Shown here: one piece after another, positions 7,203-51,210 of the stretch
Position numbering within the stretch: the stretch's first letter is position 1
Layout: the number at the start of each line of letters is the position of its first letter
DNA from: Salipaludibacillus daqingensis
GTDB taxonomy: Bacteria; Bacillota; Bacilli; Bacillales; Salisediminibacteriaceae
NCBI RefSeq assembly: GCF_029891575.1
Contig: NZ_JARZHF010000002.1
Location: forward strand, 372,001 to 436,000
Length of the DNA stretch: 64,000 bases
Reading direction: 5' to 3'
The notes under the pieces: generated by a model
Told to the model about the DNA's origin: nothing
Seen by the model: the letters and a program-made list of their open reading frames with translations, nothing else
Database searches by the model: none
Program-made: the position numbers and the translations under genes

Positions 7203-8342
7203 TCATGAATTCCTTGCTATTTTCCACAATCGAGCGATATTTTTCGATAGGACAAACGTATTCTCATAAGCATCTTCAAGTGCTTCATCCAAACTCATGG
7301 CAGAAGGAGTGATTGAAAATAAAGCATCCATCCCTTCGTCATATAAATCATCCCCATCCATTTGCAAACTTCCTGCTATAGCAATAACGGGTTTTTTATA
7401 TTTTTTAGCTAATCTAGCTACGCCAACTGGCGTTTTGCCAAAAGCAGTTTGGCCGTCAATTTTACCTTCCCCAGTAATCACAAGGTCAGCTAGCATAATC
7501 TTCTCCTCTAACTTTGTAGCTTTTATTATCATCTCAATGCCAGGTATAAGCTTCGCTGAACAAAAGGCTAGAAGTCCCGCACCTAAACCACCTGCCGCTC
7601 CAGCACCGGCAACATCCATTACTGAGATGTTCAAATGCGATTCAATCAAATCACCAAAATGAGTTAAATTACGATCGAGAGAAGAAACCATCTCTTCATC
7701 CGCTCCTTTTTGAGGTCCATAAATGGCTGAAGCACCTGTTGGTCCAGTTAAAGGATTAGTCACATCACATGCAATTTCCATGTCTACCTTTAGTAAAGAT
7801 GGGTGGAGGTTAGAGAAATCAATGGATCGAATGAGGTGAAGTTGTCCTCCTCCCCACTTTATTTGTCGCTGCTTTTCATTTAATAGTTTAACTCCTAAAG
7901 CTTGAGCCATTCCAGCTCCTCCATCATTTGTAGCACTTCCTCCAATGCCGAGAATGACCTTGTCAACGTTGTGTTGGAGTGCAGCTAAAATTAATTCCCC
8001 CGTTCCATAAGTCGTTGTCACAAGTGGGTTTCGCTTATCTAATGGTACTAGATGCAACCCTGATGCTTCAGCCATTTCAATTACAGCTGTTTTTCCATCT
8101 CCAAGAATTCCGTAAGTCGCTTTTACTCTTTCACCTAGGGGACCTGTTACTTCTTTTTGATAAATCTTCCCGTTTGTTGCATGAACTAACGATGAGACAG
8201 TACCTTCCCCCCCATCAGCCAAGGGGACTTTTACAAACGTACACTGTGAATCTTCTTCTTTCCATCCCTTTTCAATGGCTTCTGCAACTTCGATGGACGT
8301 TAAGCTTTCTTTAAATGAATCTGGTGCAATGACTATATTCAT
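7203..8342 (-). CDS. glxK: Glycerate kinase (GlxK/GarK family)
   Basis: 379 residues, the usual length for the type I glycerate kinase family, which phosphorylates D-glycerate. It begins MNIVIAPDSFKESLTS, and the family motifs ADGGEGT (about 43-49), ILGIGGSATNDGGAGMAQALG (about 130-150) and VITGEGKIDGQTAFGKTP are all present. It is transcribed alone; the SD GGGAGGCGG precedes the ATG. No glyoxylate or glucarate genes are adjacent, so its upstream pathway is not shown. Whether the product is 2- or 3-phosphoglycerate cannot be told from sequence. Confidence 0.92.
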   Translation of the reverse strand: MNIVIAPDSFKESLTSIEVAEAIEKGWKEEDSQCTFVKVPLADGGEGTVSSLVHATNGKIYQKEVTGPLGERVKATYGILGDGKTAVIEMAEASGLHLVPLDKRNPLVTTTYGTGELILAALQHNVDKVILGIGGSATNDGGAGMAQALGVKLLNEKQRQIKWGGGQLHLIRSIDFSNLHPSLLKVDMEIACDVTNPLTGPTGASAIYGPQKGADEEMVSSLDRNLTHFGDLIESHLNISVMDVAGAGAAGGLGAGLLAFCSAKLIPGIEMIIKATKLEEKIMLADLVITGEGKIDGQTAFGKTPVGVARLAKKYKKPVIAIAGSLQMDGDDLYDEGMDALFSITPSAMSLDEALEDAYENTFVLSKNIARLWKIARNS

Positions 8343-8420
8343 CTATGCCGCCTCCCTAGACTTTTATCTGATGGATCCAAATTGAAATACTAAAAAAAGC
8401 TATAATTAAATATAATGAAA

Positions 8421-8453
8421 AAGCAACCGACCTTAAAGAACGACCGATTGCTT
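8421..8453 (-). terminator. Terminator at the end of the decayed rsbQ/GGDEF region
   Basis: AAGCAACCG (8421-8429) pairs, with one G-U, with CGATTGCTT (8445-8453). On the minus strand the stem is followed by TTTTTC. It may now end transcripts of the thiamine operon. Confidence 0.65.
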
Positions 8454-8460
8454 TATATAT

Positions 8461-8840
8461 CTATTGAATCATAACAGTTAAACGATATCTACCTTTTGAT
8501 TTAGAGACATACATTTATGTCTGATTTACGAAAAGAATTCATTCCACTAACAAAGTGACCAACAACCTTAACATTGCTAGCAATTTGAGAATCGATCACT
8601 TCCATCAAATCTTCTGCATATCCTTGAAGACTATTGTATCGACCTTTATCGTAAAATGATTTACCTTATTTTCGTGCTCTTACATAATCAAATAAAATCA
8701 AATTTTAGACTTTTTGAAAAGAAGGGCTCCTATTTTTCAAAACTTTTTGATCACATCCAAAACCATTGGCAAATACAATAGTATCTTTTCCATGACCAAT
8801 TACATTCACGTGGTTTTTTTACTATAAATTCTTTGTTCAC
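8461..8840 (-). pseudogene. Decayed rsbQ-like alpha/beta hydrolase joined to the tail of a GGDEF gene
   Basis: On the minus strand the region encodes pieces of RsbQ, the hydrolase partner of the stress phosphatase RsbP: NHVNVIGHGKDTIVFANGFG and CDQKV near the start, NLILFDYVRARK, then GRYNSLQGYAEDLMEVID and VVGHFVSG, where an intact protein would carry the GHSVG nucleophile elbow. There is a one-base deletion in an A-tract near 8818-8824, at least one in-frame stop, and the catalytic Ser is gone. The last 60 bp read MYVSKSKGRYRLTVM plus a stop, the usual C-terminus of a GGDEF domain. A deletion seems to have removed the middle of an rsbQ plus GGDEF gene pair. The region fills the gap between glycerate kinase and thiY. 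Confidence 0.75.
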
Positions 8841-8866
8841 CTAAGTATTCTGTAGTCTATTTCATA

Positions 8867-9862
8867 TTATTCTTCAACGAAATTAATAAATATATCACTT
8901 GTATCTGGTTTTTCATCAATATAACCCGCTTCGTACAACCAATTGATTGTCTCTTCCCAAGAAGATTCGAATTGACTTCCAAAGGGCTCGTCTTCCCTTT
9001 CCATTTTCGATAGTAAAATATCGAGACTATCCTCTTCTACTTCACGTATGAGTGGAAAATTCTCTTGATCCTCATGCCTGAACAAGATGTCCAAACTATC
9101 ATCAGGATTTTCTTTCATGTACTTATATCCCTTTTCTGCAGCATTCCAAAAGGATTCAATCCTCGGTTTGTTATCTTCAAGCTGACTTTCATTCGTAACC
9201 ATCACTAACTCGTAAAAACTCGGCACTCCATAATCAACAGGATTAAAATAGTGAACATCATGATCTTGGTATTCAAGTACTGGTACCTCGTGATTAATAT
9301 ATGCACCAATGACGGCATCAACTCTTTCACTAACAATAGAAGAACCTAATTCAAACCCTACGTCAATGAGTTCCACTTGTCCAAAGTCACCACCATCTTC
9401 TGTTACCATTGTTTCTAGCAACGGTTCATTAACAGGAATTCCAGGATATCCAACTTTTTTTCCTTCCAAATCTTTCGGCGATTGAATCTCTTCATCATTT
9501 AAATAAACGATATGATTTAAAGGAGAGCGTACAATTGAAGCAACGGATACGACAGGAATATCCTCGTTTCTTGCTGTGATTACATCTGGCTGATAAGTAA
9601 TGCCTAATGTCACTTCCCCTGTTGCAGCTAGATTTATGGGATCTGTCGGGTTGGTCGGAAAAATAATTTCTACATCTAACCCTTCCTCTTCAAAGTAACC
9701 CATCTCCTCTGCTACGTATAAATAACTATGCACGGCATTTGGGTACCAATCGAGCATAATTTGTACTTCCTTTAATTCCTCTCCGTTTTCCCCTTGAACC
9801 TTTTCATTATTACTATTGCACCCTACTAACAGAATAAGCATGATTATAAATGCTATTTTCAT
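8867..9862 (-). CDS. thiY: Thiamine-precursor (formylaminopyrimidine) ABC transporter substrate-binding lipoprotein
   Basis: 331 residues from the ATG at 9862. Signal peptide MKIAFIIMLILLVGC ends in a lipobox, so the protein is membrane-anchored. The mature part is an NMT1/THI5-like binding domain (VQIMLDWYPNAVHSYLYVAE, then GYFEEEGLDVEI, and DPINLAATGEV). The family binds N-formyl-4-amino-5-aminomethyl-2-methylpyrimidine, a thiamine breakdown product. The chosen ATG follows GGAGG at 8 nt and overlaps the thiX stop by one base (TAATG); an ATG 15 nt earlier lies inside the SD. It is the last gene of the TPP-riboswitch operon. The protein is strongly acidic. Confidence 0.88.
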   Translation of the reverse strand: MKIAFIIMLILLVGCNSNNEKVQGENGEELKEVQIMLDWYPNAVHSYLYVAEEMGYFEEEGLDVEIIFPTNPTDPINLAATGEVTLGITYQPDVITARNEDIPVVSVASIVRSPLNHIVYLNDEEIQSPKDLEGKKVGYPGIPVNEPLLETMVTEDGGDFGQVELIDVGFELGSSIVSERVDAVIGAYINHEVPVLEYQDHDVHYFNPVDYGVPSFYELVMVTNESQLEDNKPRIESFWNAAEKGYKYMKENPDDSLDILFRHEDQENFPLIREVEEDSLDILLSKMEREDEPFGSQFESSWEETINWLYEAGYIDEKPDTSDIFINFVEE

Positions 9863-10623
9863 TATTTGTTCCTCCACTTTATTGAAATATTTTCAAACAC
9901 CTTCACTAGTAAAAACAAACAAATACCCATCATCGATAACAAAACGATTGGCGCAAATACACCTGCACCATCCATTTGAGTCATCATTCTTCTACTAAAG
10001 TATCCAAGTCCTTTGCTTGCTCCAAGCCATTCTCCAATCGCTGCCCCAATAACACTTAGCGTCACCGCTACTTTCAATCCTGAATAAAAATATGGAAGCG
10101 CGGATGGGACTTGAACTTTGAAAAAAAGCTGTCTTTTGCTTGCTCCCATCGTTAGCAGCAAATCTTGCAGTTCTTTACTCGTCGATCGTAATCCATCAAA
10201 CGTACTAACCGTAATGGGAAAGAAAGTAATCAAAACTGTCACAGCAACTTTGCTCCAAATCGAATATCCAAACCAAAGCACAAAAATAGGTGCTAAAGCA
10301 ATAATCGGAATCGTTTGAGAGGCGATGACTAATGGAAAAAAAGTCCTTTCAGTAAACGAACTGCGATTCATAAAAATCGCCAACCCACCACCGACAATCA
10401 TAGAGATTCCTAAACCGATTACCACGATTTGAAGAGTTGCAGGTAAATGAACATAAAACAGCACCTGTCTTAATTCCCAAAGTTTCACTAGAATCCCAGA
10501 AGGGGAAGGCAAAATATACGCTTTGTCATAGATTCGCGCACCTACTTCCCAGACAATCAGCAAAAGAGATACTAACACGAGCGAACTTCCATAATAAAAA
10601 ATGTTGGTCATTAATTTTTTCAT
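9862..10623 (-). CDS. thiX: Thiamine-precursor ABC transporter permease
   Basis: 253 residues with about six membrane segments and the BPD_transp_1 EAA loop (LLLTMGASKRQLFFKVQVPS ALPYFYSGLK, about 155-185). It is a SsuC/TauC-like permease. It overlaps thiZ by four bases (ATGA) and thiY by one base, showing tight translational coupling. Together with ThiZ and ThiY it forms the pyrimidine-precursor importer of the thiamine salvage route described in B. halodurans. Confidence 0.88.
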   Translation of the reverse strand: MKKLMTNIFYYGSSLVLVSLLLIVWEVGARIYDKAYILPSPSGILVKLWELRQVLFYVHLPATLQIVVIGLGISMIVGGGLAIFMNRSSFTERTFFPLVIASQTIPIIALAPIFVLWFGYSIWSKVAVTVLITFFPITVSTFDGLRSTSKELQDLLLTMGASKRQLFFKVQVPSALPYFYSGLKVAVTLSVIGAAIGEWLGASKGLGYFSRRMMTQMDGAGVFAPIVLLSMMGICLFLLVKVFENISIKWRNK

Positions 10624-11417
10624 AGAGAACGTTCCTTCGATCTCATTTTTTTCAAGAGATCTTGTTTTAATTTCATAAATGCAGCATCACTTCGATGTTC
10701 CTCATTTCGCGGTCGACTTATTGGTACGTTAACTTCATCTATTTCCCCTTTAATTGGAGGGTGAGTTAACATCAATACTCGGTCAGAAAGAAAAATCGCT
10801 TCCTCCACATCATGAGTAATAAAAATGATCGTCTTATCCCATTCATGCCATTGTTCCAACAGCCATTCTTGCATCATATATCGAGTCATTGAATCTAGTG
10901 CACTAAATGGTTCATCAAGGAGTAAAATTTCATTTCCTCCAAGAATCGCCCTTAAAAAAGATACCCGCTGTCTCATTCCTCCTGAAAGTTGGTGAGGGTA
11001 ATGATCTTCTGTTCCCAGCAGGCCAAATTTCTTCATATGATGCAACACTTTTTCTCTTGCTTCTTTTTTATTCATCCCTTTAATCTCTAACGGAAGCAGT
11101 CCATTTTCTAACACAGTTCTCCATGGAAGAAGCAAATCTTGTTGTGGCATATAACCAATTTTTCCAAGGCGATGACGCTCTTCCTTGTCTCGAAGTCTAA
11201 TGTGACCAGACTCTGGTTGTTCAAGCCCGGATGCTAATCGAAAAAATGTTGATTTTCCCGCTCCACTTGGACCAAGAATCGTTACGAATTCTTTTTCATG
11301 GATAGTAAGATTGATGTTGTCAAACACAGAAGTAAATTTATCACTATGCTTATAAGAAAACGAAACATGATCAAAAGCTAAATGTGAATGACTATGGCTC
11401 TTATCTTTTTTCTTCAT
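10620..11417 (-). CDS. thiZ: Thiamine-precursor ABC transporter ATP-binding protein
   Basis: 265 residues from ATG 11417, which overlaps the tenA stop (TAATG). An in-frame ATG at 11432 is possible but has no SD. It has Walker A GPSGAGKST, the Q-loop MPQQDLLLPW, signature LSGGMRQRV, Walker B ILLLDEPFSALD and switch FITHD, the SsuB/ThiZ class of importer ATPases. The His/Ser-rich start (KSHSHSH) is unusual but outside the fold. It powers the ThiXY importer. Confidence 0.88.
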   Translation of the reverse strand: MKKKDKSHSHSHLAFDHVSFSYKHSDKFTSVFDNINLTIHEKEFVTILGPSGAGKSTFFRLASGLEQPESGHIRLRDKEERHRLGKIGYMPQQDLLLPWRTVLENGLLPLEIKGMNKKEAREKVLHHMKKFGLLGTEDHYPHQLSGGMRQRVSFLRAILGGNEILLLDEPFSALDSMTRYMMQEWLLEQWHEWDKTIIFITHDVEEAIFLSDRVLMLTHPPIKGEIDEVNVPISRPRNEEHRSDAAFMKLKQDLLKKMRSKERSL

Positions 11418-12085
11418 TAGTCCATTGGCCACATTTCTTTGTTATAGGACATATCCCAAAACATGTATTCAAACCGAGTCGTATTTAAGAAAATTTCTTC
11501 TATATCTTTTAGTTCATGCTCCGGTTTGCCTTCTGCCAACTTATCTAATAAGGAAATCGTCCATTCTGTTAAGTCATGAAATTCTTTACTAGAATACATC
11601 TTTATCCACTCCCCATATTTCCCATTACGAGCTCCTGGCACCTCATCAAGCGTTTTACCAATCTCCGCATAACTCCACATGCACGGAAGTAAACTTGCAA
11701 CTAATTCTGCTAAGCCGCCATTATTTCCAACGTGGAGCATGTAGTGACTGTAGGCTAACGTTGTTGGTGCTGGTGAAGCCGTTTCAAGCTCATGTTCAGA
11801 TATGTTGAATTCTTTCGCGTATTGTCGGTGAAGTGCCATTTCTGTGTTCATTGTTGAGTCTAATAGCTCGGCGAATTTCCCCATCGTTTTAACATCATTC
11901 GCCTTCACAGCTCCTATAGCAAAAAGTTTCGCATACTCGATTAAATACAAATAATCTTGGATCATAAAAAATCGGAATTTATCTTCGTCTAATGTTCCAT
12001 CACCAATGCCTTGAACAAATGGATGATCATGATTTTTTCTCCAAATTGGTTTCACATTTTCATATAAACGTTGACTAAACGTCAT
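11417..12085 (-). CDS. tenA: Aminopyrimidine aminohydrolase / thiaminase II
   Basis: 222 residues from ATG 12085, preceded by GAGAGGATG; the longer frame to 12121 lies inside ylmB. An all-helical TenA/THI-4 protein: FVQGIGDGTLDEDKFRFFMIQ, DYLYLIEYAKLFAIG, the Cys of LLPCMWSYAEIG (active-site nucleophile of the family) and the Tyr/Glu-rich C-terminus FEYMFWDMSY are present. It releases HMP from thiamine degradation products after the YlmB step. It overlaps ylmB by 11 bp and thiZ by one base. Confidence 0.92.
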   Translation of the reverse strand: MTFSQRLYENVKPIWRKNHDHPFVQGIGDGTLDEDKFRFFMIQDYLYLIEYAKLFAIGAVKANDVKTMGKFAELLDSTMNTEMALHRQYAKEFNISEHELETASPAPTTLAYSHYMLHVGNNGGLAELVASLLPCMWSYAEIGKTLDEVPGARNGKYGEWIKMYSSKEFHDLTEWTISLLDKLAEGKPEHELKDIEEIFLNTTRFEYMFWDMSYNKEMWPMD

Positions 12086-13373
12086 TTCTATCATCCTCTC
12101 TTTTTTGATGACTCCACTCATAAATAAATGTCATTATTACTTTTGTAAAATCAATAAGCTGAGCAATCGAGACTGATTCATTTATTCCATGAGCATTTTG
12201 TAAATCTCCAGGACCATAAATCATCGTCGGAATTCCTGCATTACCAAGCCAACCTCCATCTGTTACCGTTTGCGACATACTAATTTCAGGACTTTTTTGA
12301 CAGACGGTTGAATGGGCAATCTTTAATGTTTGCACTTCGTCTCCATTTTCATCAAGAGAAAGAGAAGGAAATATTTCTCCTCTATCCTCAATCATGGATT
12401 TACCTCCCCAAGTAAAAATTGGCGGATTGTCTCTCAACCAAAGGTCCCCTTCCGCTACTTTGAGGAGATGATCTTCCACTTCTTTTACAATATCCTTATG
12501 GTTTTCATCTGGATAAAAATGAACAGTAATCCAAAGCCTACATTCATCGGCTACGAATGCTGCATGTCGTCCTCCCTCAATAACAGCAGGGTTAATCGTA
12601 TTCATCCCAGGAGAGAATCCTGGATATGATTTTGTAACTGCCCAATGTTTCTCTAAATCTTTCAGTCCTTCGATGATTTTAACCATTTTTTCAATTGCAC
12701 TTGCTGCGTGTATACCGCCACCAGCGTGAACCATGTTTCGACGCATGGCATCATGATACGTCTTCGGACTTTTCACCGTCACCCAACCAGTAATCACACC
12801 ACCTTGCCCTTGAATGTGTAAATCGCTCGTATCTACCACTACTGCTGCGTCCGCTGTATATCCTCTGTCGCAACATTCCAACGTTCCCGCTTCTCCAACC
12901 TCCTCGCCAATCACTGATTGAAAAATCAAGTCCCCTGGCAGTTCTATCTCTCTCTCTCGTAAAAGCTTGATCGCAAATAACGCTCCAGCAAGACCCGCTT
13001 TCATGTCAGCGGTTCCCCGTCCGTAAAGTCGGTTGTTTTTAACAAATGGTGTAAATGGATCTGTTTCCCATCCTTTTTCATGTTCATCAACTTCGGCTAC
13101 ATCGATATGTCCATTAATGATTAAACTTTTGAATTGATTAGATTGAGAACCTTTAAATGTACCAACAACGTTTGGATCTCCAGGATACACATCCCATTGA
13201 TCTACTTCTGCTCCTAGCTTCTTTAATTCATCTGCTACGAATTCTTGGGCCTCTTGGGTATTTCGAGCAGGAGGGCTCGGTGTTTTGTATCGCACAAGTT
13301 GATTTACCAGTTCGATTAATTCTTCTTTTCTACCATCGATTTCTTGGAATATAGTGTTTAGCTCTTCGTTCAT
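12075..13373 (-). CDS. ylmB: N-formyl-4-amino-5-aminomethyl-2-methylpyrimidine deformylase (M20 family)
   Basis: 432 residues, ArgE/DapE-like zinc hydrolase. It has the metal-binding INGHIDV (His and Asp), GRGTADMKAGLAG (Asp), IGEEVGEAGT (catalytic and metal Glu) and the C-terminal NAHGINESV (His). In the B. halodurans pathway YlmB deformylates the imported formylaminopyrimidine so that TenA can make HMP. This assignment rests on its place as first gene of the TPP-riboswitch operon with tenA-thiZXY; alone it could be any M20 deacylase. The ATG follows AAAGGAGAA. Confidence 0.85.
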   Translation of the reverse strand: MNEELNTIFQEIDGRKEELIELVNQLVRYKTPSPPARNTQEAQEFVADELKKLGAEVDQWDVYPGDPNVVGTFKGSQSNQFKSLIINGHIDVAEVDEHEKGWETDPFTPFVKNNRLYGRGTADMKAGLAGALFAIKLLREREIELPGDLIFQSVIGEEVGEAGTLECCDRGYTADAAVVVDTSDLHIQGQGGVITGWVTVKSPKTYHDAMRRNMVHAGGGIHAASAIEKMVKIIEGLKDLEKHWAVTKSYPGFSPGMNTINPAVIEGGRHAAFVADECRLWITVHFYPDENHKDIVKEVEDHLLKVAEGDLWLRDNPPIFTWGGKSMIEDRGEIFPSLSLDENGDEVQTLKIAHSTVCQKSPEISMSQTVTDGGWLGNAGIPTMIYGPGDLQNAHGINESVSIAQLIDFTKVIMTFIYEWSHQKREDDRNDV

Positions 13374-13467
13374 ATCATTTCTCCTTTACCTTTGACATTT
13401 CCTGTTGATTGTCTAATAGGTGATTTTCTCTAGCATTTCATTTAGAAACATGATGAACTAGAGAACG

Positions 13468-13495
13468 ACAAAAAACCACTCTAGCAAGAGTGGTT
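13468..13495 (-). terminator. Riboswitch-controlled transcription terminator
   Basis: AACCACTC (13474-13481) pairs with GAGTGGTT (13488-13495). On the minus strand the stem is followed by TTTTTTGTCG. It lies between the TPP aptamer and ylmB, so it is the expression platform: TPP binding should favour termination. Confidence 0.88.
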
Positions 13496-13561
13496 GTGTA
13501 TGTAGAACAAATCAAAAATGAGAGAAATATAAGAAAGAAATCTTATACAACTGAGTTTGCT

Positions 13562-13651
13562 CACACCACTTCCCTCCGCTAGTATTATCTAGTTCAGGTA
13601 ATAGGGTTAAGACAAACGTCTCTCTCAGCAAATCAAGCACCCCTAGTGGTC
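13562..13651 (-). ncRNA. TPP (thiamine pyrophosphate) riboswitch
   Basis: Read on the minus strand: ACTAGGGGTGCTTG, GCTGAGAGAGA, then ACCCTATTACCTGAACTAGA, TAATACTAGCGGAGGGAAGTGG. These are the conserved THI-box blocks in order, including CTGAGA and ACCTGA. It controls ylmB-tenA-thiZ-thiX-thiY. The upstream gap 13652-14008 holds only its promoter (a possible TTTGCA-17 bp-TATCTT on the minus strand near 13695-13670) and AT-rich sequence; no gene is seen there. Confidence 0.95.
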
Positions 13652-14008
13652 GTTCATAAAATTGTCAATACACAAAAGATACCACACATTTCTGAATTTG
13701 CAAACAATCATGTTTAAAAATTCATAATGTTCTTTCCATTTGTAACATCCAATAAAAAAGTTGTTCAATGTGAAATCTAAGGCTTTAGGCTATTAATTTT
13801 AAAAATTTCTTTTTCCAATCTACATCATATATCCTCTTATCATGATAACGAACACGAATAGTCGTGAAATTAAAGATTTATGACCTTTAACCTCCTATTT
13901 TTTAAAATAATTAGCAGAAATTTCTTTTAATCAACCTAACTGTTCAATTGTAGTTATTAATTTTTTTGTATAGATAACCAATTAATGTAAATCATATGAA
14001 AGGAAGGG

Positions 14009-14788
14009 TTGTGTGGACAAATGGACAATTTTCATCCAACGAATAAAGAACGACGATTTAAGGCCTATTTAGGACCTCTTGGAACAACCCAATTACATTT
14101 ACGAAATCCATATGTTGTCGCATGGTGGTCCGCTGCATTCCCTGGTTTTGGTCATCTGTTACTATCCAAATATATTAGAGGCTTTTCTCTCTTCATATGG
14201 GAAGTTTTTGTTAATAGTATGTCGAACCTTAATCATGCTATCGTGTTCTCTTTTATTGGAAATTTTGAAATGGCTAAAGAAGTGCTTGATCCAAGATGGT
14301 TACTTTTATATCTACCTGTCTATATGTTTGCTATATGGGATAGTTATCGAACAACGATGGATATCAATAAGGAATTTATCTTAGCAGAACGTGAAAATGC
14401 TGAAATAAATACATATAGTATTACCTCAATGGAAATCAACTACCTCGATAAGAGAAGACCAATCATGGCTGTTTTATGGTCGTTAATGACTCCTGGACTA
14501 GGACAACTTTATATCCATCGTATTTTCACAGCTATTTTTACGATGGGGTTCATGATCGTTTTTGTTTACTTTTCAAATGCTCTCGTAGCAGTCCATTGGA
14601 TTTTTCTAGGTGATTTAAACGAAGCAAAAGAGGTGATAGATCCTCAATGGTTTCTGTTCATACCTTCGAATATAGGTTTTGCCGTTTATGATTCTTATAC
14701 GAATACAGTTGAAAATAATAAATTATATGAAAGTGAACAACGAAAGTTTCTTCGAAAGAACTATCAACATTACCATGTTAAATTATAA
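14009..14788 (+). CDS. Conserved membrane protein with internal duplication (TM2-like)
   Basis: 259 residues from TTG 14009 (ATG 14021 is an alternative start; the SD AAAGGAAGGG is close to the TTG). Two similar halves are visible. The first has WWSAAFPGFGHLLLSKYIRG and AKEVLDPRWLL ending AIWDSYRTTMD; the second has LWSLMTPGLGQLYIHRIF and AKEVIDPQWFL ending AVYDSYTNTVE. Each half carries a Gly-Pro-rich turn between membrane segments like the TM2 fold. Function is unknown. The next gene, also a small membrane protein, starts 22 bp later, so they are probably co-transcribed. Confidence 0.7.
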   Translation: MCGQMDNFHPTNKERRFKAYLGPLGTTQLHLRNPYVVAWWSAAFPGFGHLLLSKYIRGFSLFIWEVFVNSMSNLNHAIVFSFIGNFEMAKEVLDPRWLLLYLPVYMFAIWDSYRTTMDINKEFILAERENAEINTYSITSMEINYLDKRRPIMAVLWSLMTPGLGQLYIHRIFTAIFTMGFMIVFVYFSNALVAVHWIFLGDLNEAKEVIDPQWFLFIPSNIGFAVYDSYTNTVENNKLYESEQRKFLRKNYQHYHVKL

Positions 14789-44671: not shown

Positions 44672-45508
44672 ATGCGTGTATTAATAAAAACAATCTCGAT
44701 CATAGGTTTCTTCATTCTACTTATCTATGGTATTCAACTAGCAATGTTTTACTTCAATCAAGAGCAATCTTTGTTCCTTAAACCATCGCTTTCCGAAGAA
44801 GATGCAAAAAAAATATCCACTAATCGAGAAAATGTCGAAGAACTAATCATCGAAGTAGAGGAAAATATACATATTCATGGTTGGATAATGGAAAACCAAA
44901 CAGATCGCACCTCCCCCGCTCCCTTACTTATCTACTTTGGAGGAAATGGGGAAGAACTTTCCCACTCAATTGATTCTTTTAATCATCTAGATGGTTGGTC
45001 CGTATTGTTAATGAATTATCGAGGATATGGATTAAGTGATGGTTCTCCGTCTGAAGAAACGTTATTTCACGATGCTCGAGCAATGTATGATGAACTGACT
45101 GAACGTGATCGTATTGTTGTTGCTATGGGAAGAAGCATGGGTACAGCACCTGCCACACATTTATCGAAGGAAAGAGACTTGGCTGGTACTATCCTTGTCT
45201 CGCCTTATGATAGCAGAACGCGATTATCAGAACATCGCCATCCCTTCATCCCAGCTCAACAACTCATTCGTCATCCATTCGAACTCAGTGATAAAGCACA
45301 TTCAATAGAATCTCCTTTATTAGCTTTCGTTGCTTCTGAGGATCGAGTTATTCCTCCTGAACATTCACAAGTAACCATAGATGCGTGGGCTGGAGAAAAA
45401 AAAGAAGTTTACTTAGAAGGATTTGGCCATAATGATTTGCAAGCTAGTGAAAATTATTGGGAAAATATTGAGAAGTTTTTGGAAAACAAAAAAGGTCAGA
45501 AACCTTGA
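44672..45508 (+). CDS. Membrane-anchored alpha/beta hydrolase (BEM46/ABHD13-like)
   Basis: 278 residues behind GCAGGTGATG. One N-terminal membrane segment (about 5-27), then an alpha/beta hydrolase domain. Visible are FGGNGEELSH (oxyanion region), LLMNYRGYGLSDGSPSE, the nucleophile elbow AMGRSMGTAPA, the Asp in ASEDRVIPPEHS and the His in FGHNDLQAS, a full triad. The BEM46-like group has no fixed substrate. Single-gene unit with its own terminator. Confidence 0.85.
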   Translation: MRVLIKTISIIGFFILLIYGIQLAMFYFNQEQSLFLKPSLSEEDAKKISTNRENVEELIIEVEENIHIHGWIMENQTDRTSPAPLLIYFGGNGEELSHSIDSFNHLDGWSVLLMNYRGYGLSDGSPSEETLFHDARAMYDELTERDRIVVAMGRSMGTAPATHLSKERDLAGTILVSPYDSRTRLSEHRHPFIPAQQLIRHPFELSDKAHSIESPLLAFVASEDRVIPPEHSQVTIDAWAGEKKEVYLEGFGHNDLQASENYWENIEKFLENKKGQKP

Positions 45509-45520
45509 TTATCAGAAAAA

Positions 45521-45551
45521 AAGCTAACGGACAATTACTATCCGTTAGCTT
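45521..45551. terminator. Bidirectional terminator
   Basis: AAGCTAACGGA (45521-45531) pairs with TCCGTTAGCTT (45541-45551). A-tract on the left and convergent genes. Confidence 0.85.
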
Positions 45552-45588
45552 AAATTAGTTTCTGTTATCTAAAAAATAACAATCTAAT

Positions 45589-46665
45589 TTATACATTCAC
45601 ATATGTCTTTCTTCGATCGCGAAAGCCTTTCACAATTCTCAACAACATAGCTCGATCCATCTTTAATAAAGGTTGACCTATATTTTTTAATAACTCTTTC
45701 GTATTATCGTCATGAAAACATATCGTACGGTTTAAATAAGGTTTAAACACTCGTAACGGATCATTTAATTTCTGTTCTTCCAAAGATAATGTATTTTCCT
45801 TTTCATAAGGAACAAGTTCAATAGCTTGGAAGTCCATTCCGTCTTTGATCGTATCCATAATTAAGTCATTAGCTGGAGGCGCAGGGTTTACAAGATTATA
45901 GACTTTAGTCGTCTGTGCAAACTTCAGTCCTGCCACTAGAAGTGTCGTAATATAATCTACTGGGACAATATGCGTTGTCTCATTAATTCCTACTAAAATC
46001 TTCACATCATGATGATCGACCTTATCAGGATACCTCGACATTCTCTTCTTTAAAAGCTCAACCATACGCATAACACCATACATACCAAAAGTCGTGTCCG
46101 CTTCTCCGGTTTCGGAATCACCAATAATGATCGCTGGACGCATGATGACCACATCAAAATGTTCTTTGTACGACATCACTTCGTGTTCTGCGTAGCATTT
46201 ACTTTCCTCATATGCATTGACAAACTGTGTAGAATCAATTGGGTAAAGTTTTTCAAACCCTTCCGTTCGTTCTCCTAATGTATAGGCTGTACTCACATGG
46301 ATGAACTTTGAAATTTGCATTTGTTTTGCAAAGTTTAAAAGATTTTGCGTCCCTTCAAAATTAACTTTTAGAAGTTGATCACGATCTTTTTCATTAAACG
46401 ATAAATATGCTGCACTATGATAGATAGCATCAATCGTTCCTGATAATTGTTTTAATTTTGTCTTCGAAAGACCTAGCGTTTCGTCGGAGAGATCTCCTTC
46501 CAAAACGTGCAATTGCTTTTGCTCTTGACTGTTCAAACGATTTTTCAATAACGCTGCTTTTTTATGACTACGAACAAGGACATAGACGTTATGGTCTTCT
46601 TTTACTAATTTATGAACTAAATCCATTCCTAAAAATCCCGTTCCACCTGTTACAAAAACATTCAT
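45589..46665 (-). CDS. NAD(P)-dependent extended SDR, thioester-reductase-like
   Basis: 358 residues. TGGTGFLGMDLV at the start is the NAD(P) motif, YHSAAYLSF is a conserved active-site region, HVSTAYTLG and NAYEESKCYAEHEV give the catalytic Ser and YxxxK. This is the NAD_binding_4 (fatty acyl-CoA reductase/thioester reductase) subgroup. The C-terminal 90 residues are specific to it. The substrate is unknown; no NRPS or lipid genes adjoin. SD AAGGAGC. Single gene. Confidence 0.78.
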   Translation of the reverse strand: MNVFVTGGTGFLGMDLVHKLVKEDHNVYVLVRSHKKAALLKNRLNSQEQKQLHVLEGDLSDETLGLSKTKLKQLSGTIDAIYHSAAYLSFNEKDRDQLLKVNFEGTQNLLNFAKQMQISKFIHVSTAYTLGERTEGFEKLYPIDSTQFVNAYEESKCYAEHEVMSYKEHFDVVIMRPAIIIGDSETGEADTTFGMYGVMRMVELLKKRMSRYPDKVDHHDVKILVGINETTHIVPVDYITTLLVAGLKFAQTTKVYNLVNPAPPANDLIMDTIKDGMDFQAIELVPYEKENTLSLEEQKLNDPLRVFKPYLNRTICFHDDNTKELLKNIGQPLLKMDRAMLLRIVKGFRDRRKTYVNV

Positions 46666-46843
46666 GGAATAAAAGCTCCTTACTTACTCTTTATTTCAAA
46701 ATCACCGATCGACACGGTTGTTTAATAATAACTGAATATCTAGTTTATTTTACACTAACTAAGTATTGTTTGTGTAGTAAAAAGGGTTACTTGATCAGTT
46801 TCCCATCTGAGTTCCTACAGAAACACCAGTTATTGTCTTATGA

Positions 46844-47473
46844 TTATTGTGGTTTTTTGGTAACTTCTTCGGTCACATCTTGTCCAACAAATAAAAATAT
46901 CATTACCCAACAGATAAGGCTGACACTATATACAGGAAGAAGGCCAGGGATGAAACCATTGAGTAAATAAATGACACCAATAGCTAAAATAAGCACAATT
47001 GATTTTCCTGGAGACAGAACTAAACGCTTGATTGGTTCAACGAAAGCTATTTTAGAAAAAGCTACTTTATATTTTTCAGCTGATACGAGTCCGAATACGA
47101 ACGTCCATAAAATGAGTACAATTAGCAGTATAAATGTACTAATACTATAAAAATAAAAGAAAAATCCTCCAAACAAGCTAACAATATTTAAATTAACAAA
47201 AATAACTGCAAACATGATGATAATTCCTAAAGCAATCGCATTTGCTTTCAAGAACACGGTTCGATATACGGACCAAAAAGTTTTAAAAAGAGGTGGTTCC
47301 TCTCCTTTACTCCATAATGTCATCAATCGACACATTGCAATCCATGCGGGATAAAAACCAAATACCCCAAATCCTAATATTGTAAATAAAATCCATAATA
47401 AATTAACGAAGGCAAGTTTCATCATCCAATCTGCCACTCGGTAAATAAACCCTGAAGTTCCAGTCTGTTGCAC
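46844..47473 (-). CDS. YesL-like DUF624 membrane protein
   Basis: 209 residues from GTG 47473, seven bases after GGAGGGA; the ATG at 47497 precedes the SD. DUF624 pattern: FIYRVADWMMKLAFVNLLWI, LFTILGFGVFGFYPAWIAMC, then FKTFWSVYRTVFLKANAIAL. Five to six membrane segments. In other Bacillaceae this family sits near sugar-ABC or rhamnogalacturonan genes; none is near here. Function unknown. Confidence 0.82.
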   Translation of the reverse strand: MQQTGTSGFIYRVADWMMKLAFVNLLWILFTILGFGVFGFYPAWIAMCRLMTLWSKGEEPPLFKTFWSVYRTVFLKANAIALGIIIMFAVIFVNLNIVSLFGGFFFYFYSISTFILLIVLILWTFVFGLVSAEKYKVAFSKIAFVEPIKRLVLSPGKSIVLILAIGVIYLLNGFIPGLLPVYSVSLICWVMIFLFVGQDVTEEVTKKPQ

Positions 47474-47702
47474 TTCATTCCCTCCTCTAGTTTTCATTTA
47501 GTGATAATAAATTACGTTCTTTAAACCTAAAAAAGTAATCATCCCGAAGGTGACTACCTTAATAATTTCATGATTAATAATACGACCTTATCAGTTTAAC
47601 TCTTTGCGGCATTTTTTTCTACACTTATTGATTTTCTTTCCCACTTTGGTCACTTATGCATATCTTATTTAGGAACAATTAACGAATAGGAGGATAATTT
47701 AC

Positions 47703-48329
47703 ATGTCTATGCAAGAAGAACGAGATCGTTTAAGCGTTGATGAGTTGGATTTATGTGATATTCCTTTTACCGCTACTAGAGACGATTTGGCACCCGAATT
47801 TACTGCACAGGCACTCATCAATAATCAATTAAGTGAGGTAAATTTAGGTAATGAACGTGGAAAGTGGGTTATTTTATTTTTTTACTCGAGCAATTTCACG
47901 TTTGTATGACCAACAGAGTTAGCAGCAGTTGCTGCTATTTATGATCATTTACAAAAGTTAAATGCCACAGTTTGGGGCATTAGTACCGACAGCATTTATT
48001 CTCATAAAGTGTTTAAAGAAATCTCTCCGTCTATGACTCAAGTTGAGTTCCCACTCGTAAGTGACCGAAATCAACGAATAAGTCGAGCATATCGTGTATT
48101 AGATGAAGAATCAGGTGCTCCCTTTCGAGCAACGGTCTTAATCGATCCAGAAGGGATTATTAAATCAAAACTAGTATATCCACGAGAAGTTGGACGAAAC
48201 ACGTATGAAATCATTAGAATGTTAGAAGGTATTCAATATTTTTTAGATACTGGTCTTGGTGTCCCAGCAAATTGGGTACCTGGGAAACCCGGTATCGAAA
48301 GAGATCCAAATATGATAGGAAAAATTTAG
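47703..48329 (+). CDS. Candidate selenocysteine-containing peroxiredoxin (UGA at the peroxidatic position)
   Basis: One continuous frame of 208 residues, interrupted only by TGA at 47907-47909 (codon 69). The context reads SNFTFV-[UGA]-PTELAAV. In AhpC/Prx1-type peroxiredoxins this position is the peroxidatic Cys (FTFVCPTE), so UGA very likely encodes selenocysteine. A 7-bp stem with apical loop AGTT starts 10 nt after the UGA, as bacterial SECIS elements require. All else is intact: SD AGGAGG, thioredoxin fold, DPEGIIKSKLVYP and the C-terminal GVPANWVPGKPG. The usual resolving Cys before PANW is replaced by Val; the only Cys is Cys18. A single-base null mutation (TGT/TGC to TGA) is the alternative. 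The role would be peroxide reduction. Confidence 0.72.
47907..47937 (+). promoter_or_regulatory. Putative bacterial SECIS element with its UGA
   Basis: UGA 47907-47909, then stem TAGCAGC (47920-47926) with GCTGCTA (47931-47937) and loop AGTT. The loop starts 17 nt after the UGA, is 4 nt long and has G as its second base. These fit the rules used by bSECIS searches (16-37 nt from the UGA, loop of 3-14 nt, G in the first two loop bases). Confidence 0.65.
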
Positions 48330-48402
48330 TGCAACGCCTTCAAGGATTTATCTATGTTAAAGCTAATTATTGATGTGAAAATATTCGTGAGGCTCCTTAA
48401 GA

Positions 48403-48429
48403 GTGATGATTTTAGCAAAATCATCACTT
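48403..48429. terminator. Hairpin between the peroxiredoxin and lrgB genes
   Basis: AGTGATGATTTT (48403-48414) pairs perfectly with AAAATCATCACT (48418-48429) around loop AGC. No T-tract outside the stem, but its place between convergent genes suggests a terminator. Confidence 0.5.
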
Positions 48430-48449
48430 AATGATAACAAAACCAGACG

Positions 48450-49118
48450 TTAAAAAACCCACAAAAAAATAGATAAATATACACCAGTTAAAGCCATTGC
48501 CGATCCTGCTACTGCTCCTTGTATTTCACCCTCTCTTGCTATTTGTGCGGTTCCAATTCCATGAGCAATCGTTCCGATCGCCAGTCCCCGAGCCATCGGA
48601 TCAGAGATATTAGTTATATTCAAAAGCCGTGGTCCAAACATAGCTCCGATCATCCCTGTAACCATCACAAATATTGCGGCTAGCGCTAGATCCCCTTGAT
48701 TTAATGAAGCAATTTCTAAAGCTATTGGTACTGTTGCTGATTTCACAGAAAGTGAAACAGAAACAGATTTTGTTATCTGAAACAAATGTGCCATTATTAA
48801 GCTAATCACTACCGCAACTGTAGACCCTAAAATAAGACTTACACCAGCGGCTAACCCGTGTTTTAAAATAAACTTTCTGTTTTTATAAATGGGGACAGCC
48901 AAAGCAACTGTAGCAGGTCCAAGAGCATACGTTATGACATTTTTTGCCGGTTCATACTGACTATATGGGACATCTCTAAAAATTAGAATAGCCATGATCA
49001 ATACCGTGCTTAAAAATATCGGAGTCAAAAATGGTGACGGAAAACGCTGATATATTTTTTTAGTGATCATGTAAACGGCAATGGTCATAACAATGTGTAC
49101 GATTAGTATAGTATTCAT
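48450..49118 (-). CDS. lrgB: LrgB-family protein (holin-like antiporter partner)
   Basis: 222 residues from ATG 49118 (SD GGAAGAG); the longer frame starts inside lrgA. LrgB/CidB pattern: SPFLTPIFLSTVLIMAILIF, YALGPATVALAVPIYKN, and KSATVPIALEIA, ending with the GIGTAQIAREGEIQGA region. It starts one base after the lrgA stop. LrgAB acts in pyruvate uptake or murein hydrolase/cell-death control in other Firmicutes. No lytTS pair is adjacent. Confidence 0.9.
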   Translation of the reverse strand: MNTILIVHIVMTIAVYMITKKIYQRFPSPFLTPIFLSTVLIMAILIFRDVPYSQYEPAKNVITYALGPATVALAVPIYKNRKFILKHGLAAGVSLILGSTVAVVISLIMAHLFQITKSVSVSLSVKSATVPIALEIASLNQGDLALAAIFVMVTGMIGAMFGPRLLNITNISDPMARGLAIGTIAHGIGTAQIAREGEIQGAVAGSAMALTGVYLSIFLWVF

Positions 49119-49119
49119 C

Positions 49120-49485
49120 TCACTCTTCCTTTTTTCGTGATATCGTTTGTGACATTCCACCAGTTACGATGATACCAATACATGTGCTCAACATAATAAC
49201 AAACATTAAAAAAATTCCTTCCGAAATACCCATATGTCCAAGAGTCATAAGACCAACACAAATAGGTATAAAAAAAAATGTCAAATGTTTTATTAATAAT
49301 TTCGCTCCACGTTCTATCCAAGTGATCGGTATAATACCGGAGACTAATAAAATAAACAAGATAACCATACCTAAGACATTACCCGGTAGCGGAATGGAGG
49401 CCCATTCCGTTAAAAATAAACCTAGTTGATGAATAGCCCATAATATCATTAGCTGTAGTAAAACAAAACTTATATTTTTCCACAT
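49120..49485 (-). CDS. lrgA: LrgA/CidA-family holin-like protein
   Basis: 121 residues from ATG 49485 (AGGAGTGAATGA at 9 nt; ATG 49491 is too close to the SD). Four membrane segments with the family core IHQLGLFLTEWASIPLPGNV LGMVILFILL and IPICVGLMTLG. First gene of a two-gene operon with lrgB. Confidence 0.9.
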   Translation of the reverse strand: MWKNISFVLLQLMILWAIHQLGLFLTEWASIPLPGNVLGMVILFILLVSGIIPITWIERGAKLLIKHLTFFFIPICVGLMTLGHMGISEGIFLMFVIMLSTCIGIIVTGGMSQTISRKKEE

Positions 49486-49556
49486 ATTCATTCACTCCTA
49501 GGTTCACTGTATCTGTAGCCTTTTATTTCGTCACTATAGAATTATTTTTTACTAAT

Positions 49557-49586
49557 GAAAACCGCCCTCCGTAGAGGACGGTTTTC
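49557..49586 (-). terminator. Terminator of the BH0509-like gene
   Basis: GAAAACCG-CCTC pairs with GAGG-CGGTTTTC (49557-49586). It lies 46 bp after the small gene stop on the minus strand. Confidence 0.75.
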
Positions 49587-49632
49587 ATTTTCACGTTCTT
49601 TAGATCGGAGATGGTTTTCTATCATTTCTCAC

Positions 49633-49785
49633 CTAAATTACTTCTTCGTATACTTCATGATCGTTATATGCCCGCGTATACAAATGCTCTACATCCGCGT
49701 CCGTCAGAACCATCAATTTTTCAAATGACATCTCTTTTACTCTAGACAAAAATTTAATCATGTTTTCTCTTTCCTGACGTTGCAT
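49633..49785 (-). CDS. BH0509-family small protein
   Basis: 50 residues, ATG 49785 to TAG 49633, with GGAGAGGG about 8 nt upstream. It begins MQRQERENMIKFLSRVKEMS and continues FEKLMVLTDADVEHLYTRAY. The RxERxxMIxF start and the TDxxVExLY core resemble the BH0509 family of very short Bacillaceae proteins, of unknown function. An AT-rich promoter region (TTGTAT, TATAAC near 49830) lies upstream. Confidence 0.7.
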   Translation of the reverse strand: MQRQERENMIKFLSRVKEMSFEKLMVLTDADVEHLYTRAYNDHEVYEEVI

Positions 49786-49965
49786 ATAAACCCTCTCCTT
49801 TTCTGTATTAATACAGTTTGTATTTTATATTTGTATTGTATAACAGATATAAACAGTGGTCAATGTTTTTTTAAAACATTTTTTACAATCTACTAAAAAT
49901 AGTTAATTGGTCATTAAAAGTGGAAAAGTATATGAACTTCGACCTAATATTCATTTTTATTAGAA

Positions 49966-50051
49966 AAACTTGGCTTATCGCCAAGTCCTGGCGAAAGCCT
50001 TAGTTTTTATACTTTAGTCCATTAACGGAATTAAACTTTAAAGTATAAAAA
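49966..50051. repeat. Compound inverted-repeat element
   Basis: CTTGGC (49969-49974) pairs with GCCAAG (49980-49985). Then TTTTTATACTTTA (50004-50016) is exactly complementary to TAAAGTATAAAAA (50039-50051), 13 bp with 22 bp between. GC-rich GGCGAAAGCC sits between the two. It looks like an intergenic repeat inserted in the gap 49786-50088; origin unknown. Confidence 0.6.
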
Positions 50052-50078
50052 AGCCCTTCTGCATAGGACAGAAAGGCT
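50046..50078 (-). terminator. Terminator of the first radical SAM gene
   Basis: Minus-strand AGCCTTTCTG pairs with CAGAAGGGCT (one G-U), then TTTTTTATAC. It ends 11 bp after the radical SAM stop. Confidence 0.8.
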
Positions 50079-50088
50079 AAAAAAAGTG

Positions 50089-51210
50089 TTATTGAGCTTT
50101 TTTTCTCATTGATTTTGGTACATAAACACAATATGGCTCGCTCTCCAAGTAATCTCCTGTCATTGCATAAGCTCTCGAACGAGACCCACCACAAACGTGT
50201 TTGAATTCACAGACGCCACACTTTCCTTTATATAAGTCTGGATTTCTTAATGATGTAAACACTTCTGACTCTCGATAAATGGTTGGAAGAGGTGTCTCTC
50301 GTACGTTACCTGCTTTAATAGGCAACAATCCGCTTGGGAACACATCTCCTGTATGGGATATAAACACAAAGCCATTGCCATCATTAACCCCTTTAGGCGC
50401 TCTCCCTAGTCCGTCGATCTGACCTGTAGAGCCGCTTTTCAGTGCATCTTCATAATGAATGTCAGATCCTTCACTCGCACTAATTTTTTCTCGCATTTTA
50501 TTTTGAATGACAACTCTTCGGTAATGTTGTGCTGCTGTTGTTTTAATATCAAATGGCACTTTCTTGGAAAGGTCATAAAGCCATTGGAAAACTTTTTCGT
50601 GTTCAACAGGTGAAATCATATCTTTTTCCTGTCCTCGTCCTGTAGGAACGAGGAAAAACACACTCCATAACACACAGTCCAATTTTTCAATCATTTCTGC
50701 CATTTCTTCTAAGTAATCGTAATTATATCTAGAAATAACCGTATTAATTTGCAAAGGCATTTCTAATTCATGCAAATAATTGATCGCATTCATCGTTAAG
50801 TCAAACGAACCTGTCGTACCTCTAAAATGATCATGAATTTCTGCATTGTGTCCATCTAAACTAAATGCCCATCTTGATAAACCGACATCTTTTGCTTTTT
50901 CCATCGCTTGTTTAGTCACATTAGGTGTAGCAGAAGGAGTCATTGAAACACGAACACCTTTATCAATCGCATATTTCGCTATATCAAAAACATCTTCTCG
51001 CATTAATGGATCTCCGCCTGTAAAAACAAGCATTGGATTATTCATGGAATGTATATCATCAATGAGTTTCTTCCCCTCATCAAAAGAAAGTTCAAATGGA
51101 TGGCGGTGATACTGAGCTTCCGCTCGACAGTGTAAACATTTTAATTCGCAAGCTCTCGTTAATTCCCATATAACGATAAATGGATTTTCATTATAGTCTC
51201 GAGGAAACAT
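50089..51210 (-). CDS. Radical SAM/SPASM protein (TIGR04053-like, NirJ/AhbD-related)
   Basis: 373 residues. Cluster motif CELKCLHC (Cys21, Cys25, Cys28) binds the SAM [4Fe-4S] cluster. GGDPL and the beta-barrel follow. The C-terminal region CGVCEFKHVCGGSRSRAYAM plus ESEPYC (SPASM-like) binds a second cluster. The overall pattern matches the TIGR04053 group, near the heme/heme d1 and siroheme-branch enzymes; the substrate is unknown. A second copy lies at 58761 (about two-thirds alike by eye). A CRP/FNR-type palindrome 62 bp upstream suggests expression at low oxygen. Confidence 0.85.
   Translation of the reverse strand: MFPRDYNENPFIVIWELTRACELKCLHCRAEAQYHRHPFELSFDEGKKLIDDIHSMNNPMLVFTGGDPLMREDVFDIAKYAIDKGVRVSMTPSATPNVTKQAMEKAKDVGLSRWAFSLDGHNAEIHDHFRGTTGSFDLTMNAINYLHELEMPLQINTVISRYNYDYLEEMAEMIEKLDCVLWSVFFLVPTGRGQEKDMISPVEHEKVFQWLYDLSKKVPFDIKTTAAQHYRRVVIQNKMREKISASEGSDIHYEDALKSGSTGQIDGLGRAPKGVNDGNGFVFISHTGDVFPSGLLPIKAGNVRETPLPTIYRESEVFTSLRNPDLYKGKCGVCEFKHVCGGSRSRAYAMTGDYLESEPYCVYVPKSMRKKAQ

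Follow-up and report, generated by a model that had tools for sequence, protein, structure and literature searches.

The locus and its reading frame

The window, meaning the whole 64,000-nucleotide stretch analysed here, is C2:372001-436000 of a 4.58-Mb assembly of Salipaludibacillus daqingensis in 27 contigs. NCBI places this genus in Bacillaceae. It holds a peroxiredoxin gene, prx, whose frame is interrupted by a single UGA. The features at the locus are as follows.

47688..47693, + strand: ribosome-binding site AGGAGG, read from the sequence, with ATG 9 nt downstream
47703..48329, + strand: prx gene, predicted Sec-containing AhpC/Prx1-type peroxiredoxin of 208 residues, stop TAG (assigned from frame, Pfam and AlphaFold2/Foldseek)
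47754..47756, + strand: codon of Cys18, the sole Cys of the window protein and one of two N-terminal Cys positions
47907..47909, + strand: in-frame UGA, putative selenocysteine, residue 69, at the peroxidatic position of FTFV-U-PTE
47920..47937, + strand: bacterial SECIS hairpin, as judged by covariation; stem 47920-47926/47931-47937 (7 bp), loop AGUU 47927-47930, loop 17 nt past the UGA
48261..48266, + strand: Val187-Pro188, site of the C-terminal resolving Cys (VCP) in typical 2-Cys peroxiredoxins

The frame comprises 208 codons and a TAG, with one TGA at codon 69 and no other in-frame stop. An earlier note on this DNA had described a frame open except for one TGA at the peroxidatic Cys, with both halves in the same frame and otherwise undamaged, and the sequence agrees on each point. 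The note had also predicted that a gene finder would split the gene and call it a pseudogene. A plain ORF list does break the frame into 47703-47909 and 48009-48329, but the pseudogene call is not borne out in RefSeq, where an orthologue from Cytobacillus spongiae (WP_225003809.1; 61% identity over 93% of the query) is annotated "peroxiredoxin" and runs as one 597-nt CDS through the same TGA. The C. spongiae protein differs from the window protein in having its one Cys, apart from the Sec position, at N-terminal position 23.

Assignment to the peroxiredoxin fold is straightforward. The window protein scores 112.9 bits against Pfam AhpC-TSA (PF00578; gathering cut-off 26), and its AlphaFold2 model has a mean pLDDT of 88.0 and a pTM of 0.86. 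The best Foldseek matches of this model are Salmonella AhpC structures, resolving-Cys variants included; five Salmonella AhpC chains stand among the first seven matches, with TM-scores by target length of 0.93-0.94.

Downstream, an inverted repeat (48402-48428; 12-bp arms, 3-base loop) lies between prx and the convergent lrgB and is perhaps a shared terminator, recognised by eye and left unflagged by the terminator scan. LrgB and LrgA (CidB/CidA-like) genes follow on the minus strand (48450-49491), their listed frames overlapping by about 40 bases. A radical SAM protein is encoded at 50089-51210 (minus strand), with a Cys-rich C-terminal part that looks SPASM-like by eye.

Conservation of the UGA among relatives

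Homologues were compared at 110 loci (L024-L133), including those from the genomes of the window's own family and from the best 80 of 181 relatives in the genome collection. Some TGA genes were fetched twice, so the set reduces to 64 distinct UGA proteins and 62 distinct 45-nt stretches past the UGA. The codon at the peroxidatic position is TGA at 69 loci and TGT or TGC at 41, placing the in-frame UGA where homologues carry their redox Cys. Among the best 80 of the 181 collection relatives, 59 have TGA and 21 have Cys. Of the 35 family genomes, nine have an orthologue with TGA and one (genome G009) an orthologue with TGT; genome G034 supplies a tenth TGA gene, which is a distant PrxU. A set of 397 genomes sampled evenly across the order and searched at E up to 1e-50 yields 53 orthologues, 52 of which contain exactly one TGA and span 20 genera. 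The only one lacking it is again that of G009. TGA loci are mostly from Bacillaceae, with others in Fictibacillaceae, Guptibacillaceae, Paenibacillaceae, Clostridium, Pelotomaculum and one member of Desulfobacterales. At one TGA locus, L104, a premature TAA cuts off about six residues.

The earlier note had called for homologues to be aligned at codon 69, holding that close relatives with Cys codons and otherwise decaying frames would speak against a selenoprotein. The relatives instead carry TGA in frames that are otherwise open. Past the UGA, dN/dS is 0.04-0.16 in 9 of 13 pairs tried, and beyond the SECIS it is 0.03 to 0.17 in 8 of 13. The window itself yields no dN/dS because dS is saturated in all three pairs that include it, and the remaining non-estimable pairs are likewise saturated. 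These ratios show purifying selection downstream of the UGA in the relatives.

These data bear on whether prx is a pseudogene, a dispensable peroxiredoxin whose Cys codon mutated to a stop. A lone in-frame TGA would fit such an origin, and the genome does hold another, 2-Cys AhpC-type gene (G000:C2:347869-348378, locus L051) that could make prx dispensable. Decay is nevertheless extremely improbable given the identical TGA across 20 genera, the selection past it, and the residue identity between the window protein and L025, which is 64% before the UGA and 83% after.

The SECIS hairpin

A stem-loop begins 10 nt after the UGA, with TAGCAGC and GCTGCTA as its arms and AGTT as its loop, 17 nt from the UGA. 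Sequence and spacing are exactly as the earlier note gave them, and its claim that the hairpin follows bacterial SECIS rules also holds. As published, those rules are a loop of 3-9 nt, a stem of 4-16 bp, G within the first two loop positions, a distance of 16-37 nt from the UGA and a minimum free energy of -7.5 kcal/mol or lower (PMC13188914); the hairpin has a 4-nt loop (AGUU), a 7-bp stem, a distance of 17 nt and an energy of -10.6 kcal/mol. Folding of the surrounding 44 nt gives -11.6 kcal/mol, a z-score of -2.55 relative to dinucleotide-shuffled versions. When the encoded LAAVAAI is recoded synonymously, 252 of 3000 uniform draws are as stable, so the window hairpin alone is not remarkable.

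Comparison among relatives is more telling. With the base just 3' of the UGA as position 1, pairs 15:24 and 18:21 each connect two third codon positions and are therefore largely free of amino-acid constraint. Both are paired in all 62 distinct stretches, as A-U in 12, G-C in 48 and C-G in 2 at 18:21, and as A-U in 44, G-C in 13 and G-U in 5 at 15:24. Shuffling gives mean pairing of 48.9 and 52.8, respectively, and reaches 62 in none of 5000 shuffles, a comparison that ignores kinship. By Watson-Crick count, 18:21 and 15:24 rank first and second among 105 third-position pairs, and on the tree pair 18:21 shows 4 changes, the same number for each side. The outer pairs 11:28, 12:27 and 13:26 are looser (53, 56 and 59 of 62). 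Across 40 distinct stretches from Cys homologues, 18:21 pairs in only 17 and 15:24 in only 11. The -7.5 kcal/mol threshold is reached by 61 of the 62 UGA-gene hairpins, the lone failure being L108 from Clostridium, versus 0 of 41 Cys homologues. By this covariation with compensatory changes, the hairpin is a SECIS element.

An Rfam scan of 45000-51000 at E up to 5 did not find any SECIS family. The terminator scan marks the hairpin as terminator-like, and the synonymous draws show that its stability can arise from Ala-Ala-Val-Ala-Ala codons. A transcription terminator or a coding by-product is still a most improbable account of a hairpin whose loop and spacing match SECIS rules and whose third-position pairs covary in UGA genes and mostly fail in Cys genes.

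Selenocysteine machinery and its co-occurrence with the UGA

Whether the genome encodes selA, selB, selD and tRNA-Sec was a check named in the earlier note. All four are found over curated cut-offs on contig C12, within about 7 kb that also include a LysR-type frame. The relevant loci in the genome are listed below.

Locus L018 (G000:C12:65000-84500), 7405-14300: Sec gene cluster with selA (-), selD with its UGA (+), LysR-type frame (+), selB (-) and tRNA-Sec (+)
Locus L138, G000:C1:126935-128953: formate dehydrogenase alpha gene, one in-frame UGA inside the match
Locus L139, G000:C13:53106-55121: formate dehydrogenase alpha gene, one in-frame UGA inside the match

Scores are 525.2 bits for selA, 364.4 for selB, 406.3 for selD and 61.2 (cut-off 47) for tRNA-Sec, which ARAGORN also reports as tRNA-SeC with anticodon tca. 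selD carries its own single in-frame UGA (KAG-U-GCKI). Judged by its gene content, the genome can make selenocysteine. At least four selenoproteins are predicted: two FdhA, SelD and the peroxiredoxin. Each fdhA has a further TGA beyond the match that is probably the gene end. The LysR-type regulator between selD and selB was recognised by eye, and the selenium genes may be under its control.

The SECIS elements of the two fdhA genes have loops starting GGTC and AGTT, 18 nt past the UGA, the distance at which Escherichia coli fdhF also shows GGTC. The prx element resembles them in being a hairpin right past the UGA, with an apex of GGUC or AGUU at 17 to 18 nt (AGTT at 17 nt in prx). It differs from the formate dehydrogenase elements in its four-base loop on a 7-bp stem, which lies within LAAVAAI codons rather than FdhA residues.

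Contrary to the earlier note's remark that selenoproteins are rare in Bacillaceae, selA exceeds its cut-off in 28 of the 35 family genomes and in 181 of the 397 from the order. In the family, all 10 genomes with a TGA gene have selA, and none of the 7 without selA has a TGA version. In the order draw selA occurs in 52/52 TGA genomes versus 129/345 others, while 216 of the 397 have neither selA nor the TGA version (Fisher p 1.8e-20, uncorrected for kinship). Genomes that have selA without the prx gene are thus common (129), and a TGA gene without selA was seen in none of the 397. Genomes of further TGA loci, which overlap partly in species with the order draw, have selA in 49/49 and 5/5 cases; among 21 genomes holding Cys homologues (L112-L126 and L128-L133), one has it. 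These co-occurrence counts are not independent because the genomes sharing both genes are related. In three of the 49 (G042, G066 and G069, genomes of L065, L090 and L093) selA is apparently broken or split despite the UGA peroxiredoxin, through draft errors or recent decay.

The pseudogene was rejected on the TGA kept in 52/53 orthologues and the selection past it. UGA readthrough is a general phenomenon, and translation might simply stop at codon 69 or continue with Trp, Cys or another residue. That no selenocysteine is inserted is nonetheless very unlikely, and this candidate too was rejected: every TGA genome tested has selA, the SECIS covariation contradicts a plain stop or readthrough, and a Cys orthologue occurs where the Sec machinery is missing.

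That orthologue, L032 of G009, has TGT at the peroxidatic codon. Its genome has no selA over cut-off, and its best selB score falls below threshold (187.3 bits against 242.25). Both third-position pairs are broken in L032 and the corresponding hairpin reaches only -3.3 kcal/mol. In a tree of 63 proteins L032 groups with 34 Sec rows (support 97/93) within a 60-row clade (95/92) that is otherwise Sec; support is weak at the nodes separating these two groups (31/0 to 56/82), and the L032 branch is long. A second, quickly built tree with 89 rows gives the same placement. L032 is therefore likely a Sec-to-Cys reversion, as judged from codon, hairpin and tree. The passages of a 2006 survey of selenoproteins list no Sec-to-Cys event for peroxiredoxins (PMC1794560).

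The resolving cysteine

The earlier note had read Val in place of the resolving Cys before PANW. Val187 does occupy that position, and the C-terminal VCP Cys of typical 2-Cys peroxiredoxins is absent from the window protein and from the other UGA loci alike (Cys in the C-terminal resolving region: 0 of 69). Of the 41 Cys homologues, 39 have a Cys 117-120 residues past the peroxidatic one; the exceptions are L032 and L130. In the homologues whose C-terminal region was aligned, apart from those two, the motif reads VCP or LCP. The PrxU of G034 (L034) likewise lacks the C-terminal Cys, so its loss alone is not special to the window clade.

Most UGA proteins do have a Cys near the N-terminus. Among the 64 distinct proteins, 30 have Cys at both positions 18 and 23, mostly as C-x4-C, 5 (the window protein included) only at 18, 19 only at 23, and 10 at neither. 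Cys elsewhere is rare; past the UGA, three other positions have it in 4, 2 and 2 loci. This pattern suggests a relocated resolving Cys, in which Cys18 and/or Cys23 would form a selenenylsulfide with Sec69 and the protein would not be a pure one-Sec enzyme. The presence of at least one of the two in 54 of 64 proteins is consistent with such a relay, as is L032, which also lacks the C-terminal Cys and has both N-terminal ones. The 10 proteins with neither Cys count against it, as does the window's own genus, in which three of four distinct sequences have position 18 only. AlphaFold2 confidence is also low at the N-terminus (pLDDT 56 for residues 1-10 and 76 for 11-20), and the N-termini are predicted starts picked by a crude ribosome-site score. 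On balance relocation is possible, though doubtful. The earlier note's one-Sec enzyme with another thiol partner accordingly stands as to the lost resolving Cys; an outside partner is only one possibility, and Cys18 may resolve.

Cys-rich N-terminal tails also occur in the Cys peroxiredoxins L116, L117 and L121 of Parcubacteria and relatives, with as many as 8 Cys preceding the peroxidatic one.

Relation to known selenocysteine peroxiredoxins

A Sec-containing peroxiredoxin, PrxU, was described from Eubacterium acidaminophilum in 2001 (cited in passages of PMC9312934 and PMC13188914), and passages of several papers show that Sec-peroxiredoxins with a T-x-x-U active site are long known (PMC9312934, PMC13188914, PMC2398784, PMC1088965, PMC5029168). 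The window protein shares with PrxU the AhpC/TSA domain and the T-x-x-U site. The curated PrxU model, NF040737, presumably takes in the E. acidaminophilum protein. Against its cut-off of 270, the window protein scores 158.9 bits; together with seven other Sec proteins, among them L127 from outside the clade, the range is 154.7-194.5. L034 of G034, at 400.8 bits, is a PrxU member and resembles the window clade in its UGA, its lost C-terminal resolving Cys and its N-terminal Cys, but in the tree it stands apart from that clade, adjoining Cys homologue L130. The tree place of L034 suggests a separate Sec origin.

With AhpC/Prx1 proteins (TIGR03137, Salmonella AhpC) the window protein shares the fold and the FTFVxPTE motif; it differs in having Sec for the peroxidatic Cys and in lacking the C-terminal resolving Cys. 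It scores 149.2 bits against the AhpC equivalog TIGR03137 (cut-off 272). Assignment to PrxU or to AhpC was rejected on these two scores.

Since T-x-x-U Sec-peroxiredoxins are long known and RefSeq already carries a CDS through the TGA, this is by its sequence a known kind of protein; a clade below the PrxU cut-off is less usual. We tentatively suggest, as one possible reading, that Bacillaceae and their neighbours have a Sec-peroxiredoxin clade of their own, apart from PrxU, which combines Sec with loss of the C-terminal Cys and with an N-terminal C-x4-C or single Cys as a relocated resolving or relay thiol; a lineage that lost the Sec machinery would have retained the layout with Cys. No Bacillaceae Sec-peroxiredoxin is named in the titles, abstract openings and passages searched.

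Interpretation and significance

The frame and the position of its UGA, the SECIS covariation, the Sec machinery, the selection past the UGA in relatives and the loss of the resolving Cys can all be read from the sequences themselves. Together they make it highly probable that prx is a functional selenoprotein gene in which UGA is read as selenocysteine, encoding an AhpC/Prx1-type peroxiredoxin. Because dozens of related Bacillus-like species share the arrangement, prx appears to be a real selenium enzyme and not a broken gene.

Selenium incorporation, peroxidase activity and the reductant are inferred in the following scheme. The hairpin just past the UGA would recruit SelB with Sec-tRNA-Sec, and selenocysteine would be inserted at residue 69. 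The Sec69 selenolate would then reduce H2O2 or organic peroxides and be converted to a selenenic acid. Reduction of a selenenic acid by thiol is described as general for selenoperoxidases in a passage on these enzymes (PMC8533274). Since the C-terminal resolving Cys is gone, the selenenic acid must take another thiol, which could come from outside (a thioredoxin-like protein or a low-molecular-weight thiol) or, in most members, from an N-terminal Cys (Cys18 here). A search around 59 loci (the window and 58 relatives) for a gene regularly accompanying prx gave, at best, a neighbour family present at 10 of the 59, almost always within a single species group. With no neighbouring gene conserved, the context points to no partner.

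Many Bacillaceae live in oxygen. According to passages of the 2006 survey, Bacillales had only 3 selenoproteins and selenoprotein-rich species were mostly anaerobes (PMC1794560). With prx, the selenoproteins of Bacillaceae gain a predicted peroxide-directed enzyme. The finding raises a question about the reduction of a Sec peroxiredoxin that lacks the customary resolving Cys. G009, in which selA and selB are missing over their cut-offs and the SECIS pairing is gone, would offer a natural experiment in Sec versus Cys.
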